64,000 nucleotides of DNA from Neobacillus dielmonensis (GTDB lineage Bacteria > Bacillota > Bacilli > Bacillales > Cytobacillaceae). Below are positions 42,539 through 46,994 of the stretch, in pieces. Positions within the stretch are counted from its first letter, which is position 1. Each line of letters starts with the position of its first letter. Position numbers and translations under genes: made by a program. The stretch spans positions 1 through 64,000 of the forward strand of contig NZ_HG942057.1 of assembly GCF_000612665.1 (NCBI RefSeq), given 5' to 3'. The notes under the pieces were generated by a model. It was not told the origin of the DNA and did no database searches. It saw only the letters and a program-made list of their open reading frames with translations.

Positions 42539-43012
42539 TTACTTTATAGAAACGATTCGCACACTCATTTCGCCGCCTGGTGTTTGAACTGTTACTTGTT
42601 CGCCCACTTTTCTGCCAATCAAACTTTTGGCAATCGGTGAATCATTGGAAATTTTCCCTTCAAATGGGTCTGCCTCCGCACTTCCTACAATTGTGTAAGT
42701 CTCTTCCTCTCCGTCTGGTAGTTCAACAAAAGTCACTGAGCTGCCCAGTGAAACGGAATCGGCTAACTCTCCGCCTTCAATGATTTTCGCATTACGGATC
42801 ATGTTCTCTAAGGTAGTAATTCTTCCTTCAACGAAGGCTTGCTCTTCTTTGGCGGAATCGTACTCGGAGTTTTCCGACAAGTCGCCGAAGCTTCTAGCGA
42901 TTTTAATTCTTTCTACCACTTCTTTACGTTTAACAGTTTTTAGTTGCTCTAATTCCTGTTCCAATTTTTCTTTACCAGCCTGCGTCATCGGAAATACTTT
43001 TTCTGCAGCCAA
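42539..43012 (-). CDS. greA: Transcription elongation factor GreA
   Basis: Rescues backtracked RNA polymerase by stimulating transcript cleavage. The 157-residue protein has the N-terminal coiled coil with the acidic tip ([18 protein letters not shown], about 42-59) and the C-terminal FKBP-like domain. A TTG start at 43012 (AAGGAG eight bases upstream, product [10 protein letters not shown] matching homologues) is preferred over an extension of eight codons. Confidence 0.95.
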
Positions 43013-43070
43013 AATCCTCACTCCTTCTAGTCTCACAATCCCCCATTAGAATTGTGCAATATATGTAATT

Positions 43071-43134
43071 TATATTATGCCGAAACAGGCATAATATAAG
43101 CTTGCGCGTCCTATTGTTTAGGGCGCGCTTTTTT
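43071..43134 (+). other. Two adjacent hairpins with a plus-strand T-run between udk and greA
   Basis: An 11-bp perfect stem (43071-43081 with 43088-43098, loop GAAACA) is followed by a GC-rich 10-bp stem (43104-43113 with 43119-43128) and TTTTTT on the plus strand. The flanking genes are both on the minus strand and there is no T-run in their direction. It has the form of the 3' end of a short plus-strand RNA of 60-90 bases; a promoter is not clear. Confidence 0.45.
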
Positions 43135-43185
43135 AAAATTATAACTCTAAAATCAATTTTTGAAGTGTTTTCTTTTGCTATTGTG

Positions 43186-43818
43186 TCATAAAATTGATTT
43201 TTGTTCAAGAATTGTTTGAATTTTTGTGACCATTAAGTCAATGGCTACGTGATTTTGCCCGCCTTCTGGAATAATGATGTCTGCATACCGCTTAGTTGGT
43301 TCAATAAATTGGTTATGCATCGGCCGTACCACATTGGTATATTGGTCAATAACAGAATCAAACGTACGTCCGCGTTCTTTGATGTCACGGGACAACCGAC
43401 GGATAATTCTAAGATCCGCATCAGTGTCAACAAACAATTTAATATCCATTAAGTTACGTAGACGCTCGTCCTCCAAAATCAAGATTCCTTCTAAAATAAT
43501 GACTTCCTTTGGTTCCACATGGATGACTTGGTCGGAACGGGTATGAAGTGAATAATCGTAGACTGGCTTGTTAACTGGCTGATATCGCAGCAACTTTTCC
43601 ACATGTTCAATCAGCAGGTCATTGTCAAAAGCAAAGGGATGGTCGTAATTGGTTTTTAACCGCTCCTCAAAAGGCAAATGACTTTGATCTTTATAATAAT
43701 AATCCTGCTCAATCACTAAAAGAGAATGGTCTTTAAAACTCTCAGCTATCGCTCTCGTAACGCTTGTTTTTCCAGAGCCGGATCCGCCGGCTACTCCAAT
43801 AACAACTGGTTTGCGCAT
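43186..43818 (-). CDS. udk: Uridine kinase
   Basis: Phosphorylates uridine and cytidine in pyrimidine salvage. The 210 residues start [19 protein letters not shown] with the P-loop (about 11-18), then [16 protein letters not shown] and [15 protein letters not shown]-like nucleotide-binding segments. It starts four bases after the yrrO stop, so it is part of the yrrM-yrrN-yrrO-udk unit. Confidence 0.97.
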
Positions 43819-43822
43819 CTAG

Positions 43823-45094
43823 CTAGTTCTCCTTTCGCATCATGTTGTTAGGATAGACCGGTTTATCCAATTTAAAACGGACAATTTGAAGCGGATGTCT
43901 GGCAGCGTCCAGTTCATTTCCCTTTTCATCCCAGATTTTGTCGATGACATGAGTAAAGTTGTCAATTTCCGGTCCGAAGAATTCCACCTCATCACCCGGT
44001 TTAAAATGGTTTCTCTGCTGCAGGGTGACCATTTGTGTCGTTTCATCATAGTTCAAGACCAGACCGACAAAATCAAACGTTGTCTTCTTGCTATGATTAC
44101 CAAACATTTGCTCTTTATACCCTGGCACCCCTTCAAAGAAGGCTGGAGCTGTTTCCCGATTAGCGCATTTATCAAGCTCTTCCAGCCATTCGCGTTGAAT
44201 GACAAAATTGTCGGGATCAGCGCAATATGCGTCAATTACTTTTCGATAAACACTTACTACAGTTGCGATGTAGTGAATCGATTTCATTCGGCCTTCTATT
44301 TTTAAACTATCAATGCCTAGTTCAATCATTTTCGGAATCGACTGAATTAGATTTAAATCCTTCGGGCTCATGGCGAATGGCGCGTCCTCTGCCCCGAAAA
44401 GAGCCGATTCCCCGTTATTTCCTTCAAGCTGATATAAGTCATAATCCCAGCGGCACGACTGGCAGCAGCCCCCACGGTTCGAGTCTCTTGCTGTCATGTG
44501 GTTGCTCAAGGTACAACGGCCTGAATAAGCAATACACATAGCGCCATGAATAAACGTTTCAATTTCAATATCTACTTTTTCTTTCATTTCACGTATTTCT
44601 TCCGCACTGGTCTCACGGGCTAATACGACCCGCTCCAATCCTTCTTCCTGCCAGAACTTAATAGCTTTCCAGTTGGAAAGAGATTGCTGTGTACTTAAAT
44701 GAACTTCAATCTCTGGTGCAATTCGGCGGCAGGTTTCGATGATCAGTGGGTCTGCTACAATAATTCCGGCAATACCCGCTTCTTTTAACCCTTGTAGATA
44801 TTCCTCCAAGCCGGGAATATTTTCATTGTGGGCATAAATATTGGTTGTTACATAAATTTTCGCACCATATTTTTTGGCAAACTCTACGCCTTCTTTAATT
44901 TCTTCTAACGTAAAGTTGTCTGCATTGGAACGGAGTCCGTACTCTTGCCCGCCAATAAATACCGCATCTGCTCCATACTGCACGGCAATCTTTAATTTTT
45001 CCAGATTGCCTGCTGGAGCAAGTAGTTCCGGTTTTTTCACAATGACACGTTTTCCATCAATGATTTCAGAAATCTTGTCTTTTACTGTATTCAC
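43823..45094 (-). CDS. yrrO: tRNA wobble-uridine hydroxylation protein TrhP2 (U32 peptidase family)
   Basis: U32-family protein; in B. subtilis YrrN-YrrO form the prephenate-dependent system that hydroxylates U34 of tRNA to ho5U. The 423 residues contain the U32 signature ETFIHGAMCIAYSGRC (about 173-188) and further cysteines in GGCCQSCRWDY that can hold an Fe-S cluster. GTG start with GGAGGGG six bases before. Followed by udk and preceded by yrrN. Confidence 0.93.
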   Translation of the reverse strand: MNTVKDKISEIIDGKRVIVKKPELLAPAGNLEKLKIAVQYGADAVFIGGQEYGLRSNADNFTLEEIKEGVEFAKKYGAKIYVTTNIYAHNENIPGLEEYLQGLKEAGIAGIIVADPLIIETCRRIAPEIEVHLSTQQSLSNWKAIKFWQEEGLERVVLARETSAEEIREMKEKVDIEIETFIHGAMCIAYSGRCTLSNHMTARDSNRGGCCQSCRWDYDLYQLEGNNGESALFGAEDAPFAMSPKDLNLIQSIPKMIELGIDSLKIEGRMKSIHYIATVVSVYRKVIDAYCADPDNFVIQREWLEELDKCANRETAPAFFEGVPGYKEQMFGNHSKKTTFDFVGLVLNYDETTQMVTLQQRNHFKPGDEVEFFGPEIDNFTHVIDKIWDEKGNELDAARHPLQIVRFKLDKPVYPNNMMRKEN

Positions 45095-45119: not shown

Positions 45120-46049
45120 TTAATAAACTGTCTCCTTGAAGAAGAAACCTGTATCTAATGGACGGTTAGCCGGCTGTAATTCTTCGATAGCAGCTAACAG
45201 GTCGTCCTTCTTGTCTTCATAAAGGTCTGGATCTTCAAAATATAAATCAATGGCTTCACGGTAGATTTTAGTGACAGCAAGGATATATTCCGAATCTTTT
45301 AAGATGCCGTCAATTTTAAACGAATCAATGCCAGCTTCTAACATATCTTGGAACTCATCAATAATACAAATATCATTTGGGCTCATAATGTGGGTGCCAT
45401 TTTCATCCTCAAAAATCGGGTATTTGCTTCCCCGCTCTTTATCGTGAAGGAACATATTTTTTTGCTGTTTGCGATTCTCAATTTCCATGGCCTTCCCTTG
45501 GTATTCAAAGTAGTTTCCAAGCAATGACCGTTTAGATTGGAACATGCAGCTCATTCCATGTACCTGTACTTCAATTTCCACTTCGGCATTTTCCTTTATT
45601 TCGACAATCGCATCCATATTAATTTCACGCGCCAAGACTGCTCGTTTAGCCCCTTTTCTCCCCCAATAGTTGCAGGTATACCAGTTGGTCCCAGTTGTTT
45701 CTGTACTCCAGTGGAGCTTCATCTGAGGGGCTGTTTCTCTCACTGCCATTAACACGGCAGGGTCGCCAAAAATAATCGCATCTGCATTGGCGTCAGCTGC
45801 GAAACGGATATAATCATTTAACTCCTCAATTTTTTCATTATGAAAAATTGCATTCATCGCAATATATACTTTTTTTCCTGCAGAATGGGCTAGTTCAATC
45901 GCCTGTTTTACATCTTCACGGTTAAATTCACCGGCAAGCCTTAAGCCATAACGCTGTTCCCCAATCACATAGGCATCCGCCCCTGCTTCTACCAAAGGCA
46001 AAATATCATGAACAGATGTTGGTGTCACCAGCAGTTCAGGTTTTTTCAT
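45120..46049 (-). CDS. yrrN: tRNA wobble-uridine hydroxylation protein TrhP1 (U32 peptidase family)
   Basis: Shorter partner of YrrO, 309 residues. It has the U32-like fold but a degenerate signature (EVQVHGMSCMFQSKRSLLGN) and lacks the Cys-rich segment after it, as usual for this subunit. ATG 46049 (AGAGGTG six bases upstream) gives the length of the B. subtilis protein. Its stop is 25 bases before yrrO. Confidence 0.92.
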   Translation of the reverse strand: MKKPELLVTPTSVHDILPLVEAGADAYVIGEQRYGLRLAGEFNREDVKQAIELAHSAGKKVYIAMNAIFHNEKIEELNDYIRFAADANADAIIFGDPAVLMAVRETAPQMKLHWSTETTGTNWYTCNYWGRKGAKRAVLAREINMDAIVEIKENAEVEIEVQVHGMSCMFQSKRSLLGNYFEYQGKAMEIENRKQQKNMFLHDKERGSKYPIFEDENGTHIMSPNDICIIDEFQDMLEAGIDSFKIDGILKDSEYILAVTKIYREAIDLYFEDPDLYEDKKDDLLAAIEELQPANRPLDTGFFFKETVY

Positions 46050-46054
46050 CTTCT

Positions 46055-46693
46055 TCACCTCTTCTTTTTACTAATGGCCACCCCATCGCCTACTGGCAGG
46101 ATAACTGAATCATAATCTGGATGGCCCATTAACCAGCGGTTAAACTCATTAATTTTCTTAACAAGATTCCGCGTGCGCTTTGATTCAATTTCCTCCTCAG
46201 CAACAAGGCCTTTAAATAACACATTGTCAGTAATAATCATCCCGTCCAAATTCAGATACTTTGAATAAATCTCGAAGAACTTTTTATATTGCCCTTTTGC
46301 TGCATCAATAAAGATGGCATCAAAAGGAGCATAGTGGCTAACCTGTTCCGAAACCTCCAAAGCATCTCCTTTAATCAAGTGAATATTTTCACTAAGGCTT
46401 GTCCGTTTGAAAAATTCCTCTGCTGCAGAGATCCTTTCGCTATCACGTTCAATTGTTACAATCTGCGCGTTTGGAAGTGCCTCAGCCATCCTAAGCGCTG
46501 AGTAACCAATTGCGGTTCCAACCTCCAAAATGGTTTTAGAACGATGAATTCTAAGTAGCTGCAGCATAGCTTCAATGCCCTGCAGCTCCATGATCGGAAC
46601 TTGGTGCAGTTTTGCATAGTTCTCCATTTCGGTAAACAGGAAATGTCGGTCCGGAATAAGCTCTTCTAAATATGAATGCAGCTTTTCATTCAT
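46055..46693 (-). CDS. yrrM: tRNA 5-hydroxyuridine O-methyltransferase TrmR
   Basis: SAM-dependent O-methyltransferase that converts ho5U34 to mo5U34, the step after YrrN/YrrO. The 212 residues show motif I EVGTAIGYSALRMA (about 56-69), the VTIERDSERI motif and FIDAAKGQY with the metal-binding Asp. ATG 46693 or the TTG just before it. First gene of the modification operon; a structured RNA candidate lies 130-250 bases upstream. Confidence 0.93.
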   Translation of the reverse strand: MNEKLHSYLEELIPDRHFLFTEMENYAKLHQVPIMELQGIEAMLQLLRIHRSKTILEVGTAIGYSALRMAEALPNAQIVTIERDSERISAAEEFFKRTSLSENIHLIKGDALEVSEQVSHYAPFDAIFIDAAKGQYKKFFEIYSKYLNLDGMIITDNVLFKGLVAEEEIESKRTRNLVKKINEFNRWLMGHPDYDSVILPVGDGVAISKKKR

Positions 46694-46825
46694 CAAGCTG
46701 CGTCACCTCAATCCTAAAAATACTATAAGAACACCCGGCGAACTAACTTTACGGGCGTTGGAACTAAAAATAGTTTTTCGAAGTCAAATACTCTTATTAT
46801 TCGCTGAATTTCACCTATTTAGACA

Positions 46826-46939
46826 TAAAAAATAGCGTACACAGAAATTTACCAGTGAAGGTGGCCCGAGCAACATAACCGGGTATTCCACTCAATGTTC
46901 GTTTACTGTGAGTTACGCTATGATTTCCAAATAAACACC
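46826..46939 (-). ncRNA. Candidate structured small RNA or leader between mltG and yrrM
   Basis: Minus-strand transcript of about 114 bases predicted from an extended -10 (46946-46954) to a U6 run (46827-46832). It folds with an outer 8-bp stem (46914-46921 with 46832-46839), a three-base bulge, a 5-bp stem (46906-46910 with 46840-46844), and an inner hairpin of GUGG/CCAC and CCCG/CGGG pairs around a GUUAUGUUGCU loop. The outer stem plus U6 also forms its terminator. No RNA family recognised; it could be free-standing or an attenuator for yrrM-yrrN-yrrO. Confidence 0.5.
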
Positions 46940-46945
46940 TGAACC

Positions 46946-46954
46946 ATTCTACCA
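46946..46954 (-). promoter_or_regulatory. Extended -10 promoter element of the RNA candidate
   Basis: TGGTAGAAT on the minus strand (TG-N-TAGAAT), directly after the mltG terminator T-run. No good -35 hexamer at 17 bases, which an extended -10 tolerates. Confidence 0.45.
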
Positions 46955-46955
46955 C

Positions 46956-46984
46956 AAAAAAAGAGGGAATGCTATACTTCCCCC
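46956..46984 (-). terminator. Terminator after mltG
   Basis: GGGAA/TTCCC stem (46978-46982 with 46965-46969) followed by TCTTTTTTT on the minus strand, 11 bases past the stop. Confidence 0.8.
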
Positions 46985-46994
46985 TTCCATCGTA

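Follow-up and report, generated by a model that had tools for sequence, protein, structure and literature searches.

A conserved leader upstream of the yrrM-yrrN-yrrO genes of Neobacillus dielmonensis is probably a transcription attenuator

The window analyzed here is a stretch of 64,000 nucleotides of Neobacillus dielmonensis (contig NZ_HG942057.1, positions 1 to 64,000). In it, mltG, yrrM, yrrN, yrrO, udk, and greA all lie on the minus strand; among the yrrM relatives in named genomes, that of N. muris is the closest (85% identity). In B. subtilis, mo5U34 is reported to be made by YrrM, YrrN, and YrrO, whose genes lie in one operon (PMC6599085). The udk and greA products meet NCBIfam cut-offs, those of yrrN and yrrO match TrhP below its cut-off, and yrrM met no NCBIfam cut-off. 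The gap between mltG and yrrM measures 298 nt and holds the leader element, also on the minus strand. Read 5' to 3', the gap consists of the mltG terminator, an extended -10, a start region, a stem named P1, an inner hairpin, a U6 run, AUGUCUAA, and 122 nt leading to yrrM. The features are as follows.

48137-46995, minus strand: mltG, the upstream gene
46959..46988, minus strand: intrinsic terminator of mltG, from the terminator scan and the sequence
46975-46970, minus strand: -35-like hexamer ATAGCA in the loop of the mltG terminator, 18 nt upstream of the -10, assigned by eye
46946..46956, minus strand: extended -10 element TGTGGTAGAAT (TGTGG-TAGAAT; consensus TATGnTAAAAT), from sequence and alignment
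46932..46940, minus strand: predicted transcript start and conserved 5' end AGGUGUUUA (consensus AAGUGUUUU), the start being placed from the -10
46906..46921, minus strand: 5' arm of P1, with AUAGCGUA at 46921-46914, the ACU bulge at 46913-46911, and CACAG at 46910-46906, from sequence, folding, and relatives
46845..46905, minus strand: variable interior, one imperfect hairpin in the window, from folding and relatives
46891-46888 with 46864-46861 and 46883-46880 with 46868-46865, minus strand: interior pairs, GUGG with CCAC and CCCG with CGGG
46832..46844, minus strand: 3' arm of P1, with CUGUG at 46844-46840 and UACGCUAU at 46839-46832, from sequence, folding, and relatives
46827..46832, minus strand: U6 tract, its first U paired; predicted termination site, from sequence
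46819..46826, minus strand: conserved tail AUGUCUAA downstream of the U tract (CAUGUCUAA in most aligned relatives)
46697..46818, minus strand: spacer to yrrM, ending in the ribosome-binding site GAGGTGA; its length varies among relatives
46055..46696, minus strand: yrrM (trmR), methyltransferase, first gene of the group
45120-46058, minus strand: yrrN
43823-45094, minus strand: yrrO
43186-43818, minus strand: udk
42539-43036, minus strand: greA, 149 nt downstream of udk

An earlier note had described an extended -10, a stem of 8 and 5 bp with a three-base bulge, and a hairpin of GUGG/CCAC and CCCG/CGGG pairs, and all of these can be read on the minus strand. P1 consists of an outer helix of 8 bp (AUAGCGUA/UACGCUAU), a 3-nt bulge, and an inner helix of 5 bp (CACAG/CUGUG). 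The run of six U that had been placed after the outer stem is present; its first U is, however, the last paired base, so that five U follow the stem here, and 130 nt separate the U tract from yrrM. The extended -10 was missing from the consensus promoter scan, which demands a better -35. The mltG terminator and the putative yrrM promoter overlap, since the -35-like hexamer sits inside the terminator loop; in relatives this position often reads TTCGCA or TTAGCA. The leader element occurs as a single copy in its own genome, which ruled out a repeat or mobile element. In the udk-greA gap (43037-43185), GCGCGCCC and GGACGCGC make up a hairpin whose T run belongs to the opposite strand, and there is a TTATATTATGCC inverted repeat; the terminator scan of the window gave no terminator-like site on the coding strand of this gap.

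For the 100-nt core the predicted folding energy is -29.2 kcal/mol, with a z of -3.62 that 1 of 200 shuffles matched; the bare stem-loop has a z of -3.04 (2 of 200 as good). The whole 129-nt span of the earlier note reaches a z of only -0.86, with 37 of 200 shuffles as good, and the plus strand of that span scores better (z -1.89). A search of the window with Rfam 15 at the gathering cut-off returned no match; at E values up to 10 there were three, all far under their cut-offs and on the opposite strand, the best being Hairpin ribozyme with 19.2 bits against 65. The T-box leader model had no match. No Rfam family fits, in line with the earlier opinion that the element is neither a T-box nor a known riboswitch. 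Folding by itself would have left the matter undecided; as we read it, the related genomes settle it.

Eighty yrrM loci in named genomes yielded 49 gaps with the element, which together with the window make 45 long leaders (44 distinct) and 5 short ones. Alignment A1 contains 39 of the 45 long leaders; L014, L021, L043, L048, L051, and L052 were dropped for long inserts or odd ends, and none of the five short leaders is included. The mean share of the commonest base in these 39 sequences, omitting columns in which a gap is the commonest state, reaches 0.91 for the -10 region and 0.90 over the next 14 bases; the two arms of P1 have 0.93 and 0.98, the U run 1.0, and CAUGUCUAA 0.92. The interior, with 0.51, is the least conserved part. 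In five leaders the interior is nearly absent, and only a 10-bp hairpin (a 24-25 nt terminator) and U6 are found; L023 and L179 have a different hairpin.

From the 39 leaders we built a covariance model, R1, comprising P1 and its flanks. R1 matched 153 of 193 family genomes, some of which had supplied its own sequences, in 20 of 25 genera, with one match per matched genome among the matches listed. In an even order-wide sample it matched 13 of 299 genomes, 7 of them from its own family. The six matches outside the family include four with a P1-like stem (L122-L125) and two without P1 (L128, L130), which therefore rest on the promoter and the U run. Among the 93 matched loci inspected, which include the window and in part repeat genomes of the 80-locus set, yrrM lies downstream in all 93, and mltG was recognized upstream in 92. 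The proposal of a structured, conserved candidate attached to the tRNA U34 modification operon is borne out by these matches; judged by comparison of sequences, the element is real and conserved. An early pattern search allowing up to 2 mismatches had given hits in 43 of 60 genomes; since the reversed control pattern hit many as well, we regard this search as a lead only.

A terminator-like hairpin was picked downstream of the promoter in 127 of 149 rows, a few of the picked hairpins not being P1. The other 22 rows comprise 7 gaps shorter than 60 nt, 9 without a recognized -10, and 6 without a hairpin (L053, L061, L064, L067, L070, and L073; in L067, inspection does show one, its U run preceded by a C). 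Inserts of about 50 to 250 nt, some with hairpins, lie between promoter and P1 in L048, L153, L154, L156, L181, L127, L129, L131, L163, and L142-L145; the 5' end therefore lies at no fixed distance from P1. L039 and L003, whose records bear the names Pseudomonas sp. ISL-84 and Paenibacillus sp. BSR1-1, have a yrrM locus of the Bacillaceae type, and the record titles are probably wrong.

The compensatory changes that the earlier note had named as a check were found in one of two comparisons. In a MAFFT alignment of the 39 sequences, P1 pairing was not above that of shuffles (97.0% of cells paired vs 96.9%); the share of paired cells was reached in 234 of 500 shuffles and the covariation score in 43 of 500. 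P1 hardly varies in close relatives, so the covariation test is uninformative there. For wider sets, 131 of 174 and 139 of 240 gaps were kept, anchored on GCG[TC] and CGCT; this anchoring makes the core of the outer helix invariant by selection, so that the test applies to the five inner pairs only. In 63 distinct arm pairs from the 139 loci, the inner P1 has 15 further pair types vs 7.9 (sd 1.4) after shuffling, a value reached in 0 of 2000 shuffles, and 11 cells changed on both sides vs 3.5 (reached in 1 of 2000), though the rows are related, so that these figures overstate independence, and a few mis-anchored rows are left in the set (e.g., L052, L107, and L137). Double changes are A-U to G-C in L177, C-G to U-A in L164 and L160, and G-C to A-U in L142; the outermost pair shows one from A-U to G-C (L035/L148). 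The comparative support for the predicted P1 pairing comes from the wider set alone.

The bases directly after the U run are strongly conserved (CAUGU). Of 180 distinct leader gaps, 121 have at least one C[ATG]TG site directly after four or more T, and outside the gap 69 of 4247 T5 runs, or 4 of the 171 behind a stem, are followed by C[ATG]TG; the two counts differ in run length and units, and many of the 180 gaps are interrelated. Across the order, unrelated hairpins occupy the same place, namely AGAAAGCU/AGCUUUCU (L186, L190, L200), CUCGGC/GCCGAG (L185, L193), and UGUCAUU/AAUGAC (L128, L227), and behind them a U run is again followed by C(A/U)UG. These short, altered, and unrelated hairpins at one place suggest that a terminator is kept while its sequence is exchangeable. 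In the mltG-yrrM gaps of L124, L125, L197, L199, L238, and L248 we observed nested twin terminators, in which a larger stem, with its own U run and (C)AUG or CGUG, encloses a small hairpin that has another U run and CAUG.

Counted by eye with the strict pattern U4 plus C(A/U/G)UG, this layout of U run and C(N)UG occurs in 10 of 45 families (f1, f19, f22, f27, f28, f30, f31, f39, f40, and f41) and is absent in 35; a loose pattern marks 14 of the 45. Two further families, f12 and f42, carry the tail layout by eye, the promoter pattern having failed there, and in f24 and f44 a hairpin and a U run are present but the tail is missing. By inspection, families with the layout tend to start the transcript with AAGUnUUUU, and many others, without the layout, have a UAUAUCGAGUUG-like start. 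In L054, L055, L056, L066, and L069 (the last titled B. subtilis) the mltG-yrrM gap is only 0 to 6 nt long. The operon can do without the leader, as these gaps and the families lacking the layout show, and this speaks against the attenuator proposed below.

We consider it likely that the element is the 5' leader and transcription attenuator of a yrrM-yrrN-yrrO-udk(-greA) transcript. The marks of an attenuator leader, that is, a promoter, a stem with a U run, and then the gene, in conserved synteny, are all found in the sequence. RNA polymerase would start just past the mltG terminator and make about 110 nt; the P1 stem and the U tract would act as an intrinsic terminator, and only polymerases that read through would get to yrrM. 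We infer that both promoter and terminator are active in vivo and that a single transcript spans the genes. The leader is probably a switch that decides how often the tRNA-modification genes are read, and on the best reading it would be neither primarily an sRNA gene nor a ligand aptamer.

The earlier note had offered both a small RNA gene and an attenuator. As an independent sRNA gene, the element would have its own promoter and terminator and give a stable RNA of about 110 nt pairing with other mRNAs, and yrrM would have a promoter of its own. The order of promoter, fold, and terminator and the conserved 5' end AAGUGUUUU suit this explanation. We count with it a mixed form, an attenuator whose released RNA also acts in trans; the precedent is GraL, the greA leader of E. 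coli, whose reported targets are nudE mRNA (in trans) and greA (in cis) (PMC6829880). Against the sRNA gene stand 33 loci in which the U tract ends at most 45 nt before yrrM (one place is included twice, as L122 and L205, and L025 and L112 are identical sequences). In 23 of them the scan found no promoter-like site; the other 10 have weak ones, all with the TATTTT of the U run as -10, and three have another as well. With so short a spacer, which leaves little room for another promoter, yrrM would depend on read-through, or else on transcription from mltG that passes two terminators, which argues for a leader and against a free-standing RNA gene. The interior, moreover, turns over and almost vanishes in the five minimal leaders, and the element is tied to yrrM at every locus inspected, though vertical descent alone could fix its place. 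The attenuator is thus favored by the short-spacer loci and the minimal leaders, and an independent sRNA gene is unlikely. The 130-nt spacer of the window could hold a weak second promoter; one candidate in the tail, CTGTGA-16-TCTAAA, was rejected, as it lacks key -10 bases and, by eye, is not kept in other genera.

P1 might also be a second terminator that merely insulates yrrM from mltG read-through, with no regulation. It does come directly after the mltG terminator, and terminator-like sites are frequent in this stretch (14 on both strands vs 5.1 after shuffling, P1 itself being too long-looped for the scan). Between the two terminators, however, lies the strongly conserved promoter-like sequence, whose supply to yrrM P1 can only reduce, and both stem arms and post-U tail are conserved beyond the needs of a terminator. 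We hold pure insulation to be very unlikely.

The window's own interior, folded alone, has a z of -0.79. Interiors of relatives were taken from the 114 of 174 gaps with recognizable arms, giving 87 distinct sequences; z is negative in 82 of the 87 (mean -1.51), 32% reach p 0.05 or better, and in several relatives the interior folds as two hairpins on a junction. Interiors that fold despite sequence turnover suggest that the structure is better preserved than the sequence. RNAalifold on 18 Neobacillus-type leaders gave no covarying pair, and the interior was not resolved. A riboswitch or tRNA-sensing leader, with an interior aptamer whose ligand (e.g., a metabolite of the wobble-uridine pathway) shifts P1, would fit the folded interiors and their junctions but is highly improbable, because the interior is not conserved and is nearly absent in the minimal leaders, and because the element matches nothing in Rfam.

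Returning to the attenuator, no conserved antiterminator pairing was seen by inspection, and no leader peptide by eye. The one candidate antiterminator noticed, of 5' GUGUU with AACGC of the 3' arm, was rejected by eye; it is broken and uncompensated in leaders that start with AAGUAUU or AGGUAUU (e.g., L018, L024, and L049; at least 12 of 180 starts). As no antiterminator was found, the regulated state is hypothetical, and constitutive partial termination would look alike. Our guess is that read-through would be set by a protein acting on the polymerase or on the stem, and not by a small ligand or tRNA, because P1 is conserved in sequence, the post-U bases are conserved, and a conserved antiterminator was not seen. 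The invariant arms and tail suggest that a protein, or RNA polymerase itself, recognizes them. The first candidate factors would be NusA, NusG, or the operon's own GreA. Feedback by GreA may be the most economical guess, though only a guess, since greA is the last gene of the group and its leaders act as attenuators in E. coli and are reported as such in bacilli.

In the way it would work, the leader most resembles the rimP-leader of Naville and Gautheret (2010; PMC2965389), whose terminator stem carries the motif GGGc...gCCC and is, in those authors' view, recognized by a protein. As described there, both are short leaders with a sequence-conserved terminator stem, of a general form without visible antiterminator, on an operon that also encodes a transcription factor (NusA in theirs, GreA in ours). 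The present leader differs in its stem (AUAGCGU/ACGCUAU and CACAG/CUGUG), long interior, conserved post-U tail, and operon; with stem and gene different, it is not, on its sequence, a member. The greA-leader of bacilli is reported in the same paper as an attenuator upstream of greA with a clear antiterminator (PMC2965389). Compared by description only, it shares with our locus greA, the fifth gene of the yrrM group; the present leader, however, is about 3.8 kb upstream of that gene. GraL, too, is a leader with a terminator, which yields short RNAs, and its effect needs the 5' and terminator sequences; it lies directly before greA, and its post-U sequence is reported to be dispensable (PMC6829880), whereas that of the present leader is conserved.

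In the parts of the open literature available to us, we did not find this leader described, though an unnamed 5' UTR or 3' end in a B. subtilis transcriptome table may correspond to it; nor did we find there a description of how the genes for wobble-uridine hydroxylation and methylation (mo5U34) are controlled in bacilli. A conserved attenuator, if true, would give a direct handle on that control. If the post-U sequence is kept while hairpins exchange, the leader would also be an unusual natural case for termination at and beyond the release point. Going further, and more probably wrong than right, we propose that it may represent an undescribed, family-wide class of attenuators. In such a class the information would reside in a fixed terminator stem and a fixed release-point sequence (U tract and C(A/U)UGU) and not in an aptamer-like interior; the sequence would be reused behind unrelated, sometimes nested hairpins, and a factor acting on the polymerase, possibly GreA, would set the supply of the wobble-uridine enzymes.

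The spacer of some Neobacillus contains a second similar stretch, AATAATAAAAGTATTTGACTT-like, at 46780-46810 in window coordinates. Such a stretch is also present in L005, L006, L008, L010, L017, L018, L020, and L031, where it is sometimes followed by an inverted repeat.
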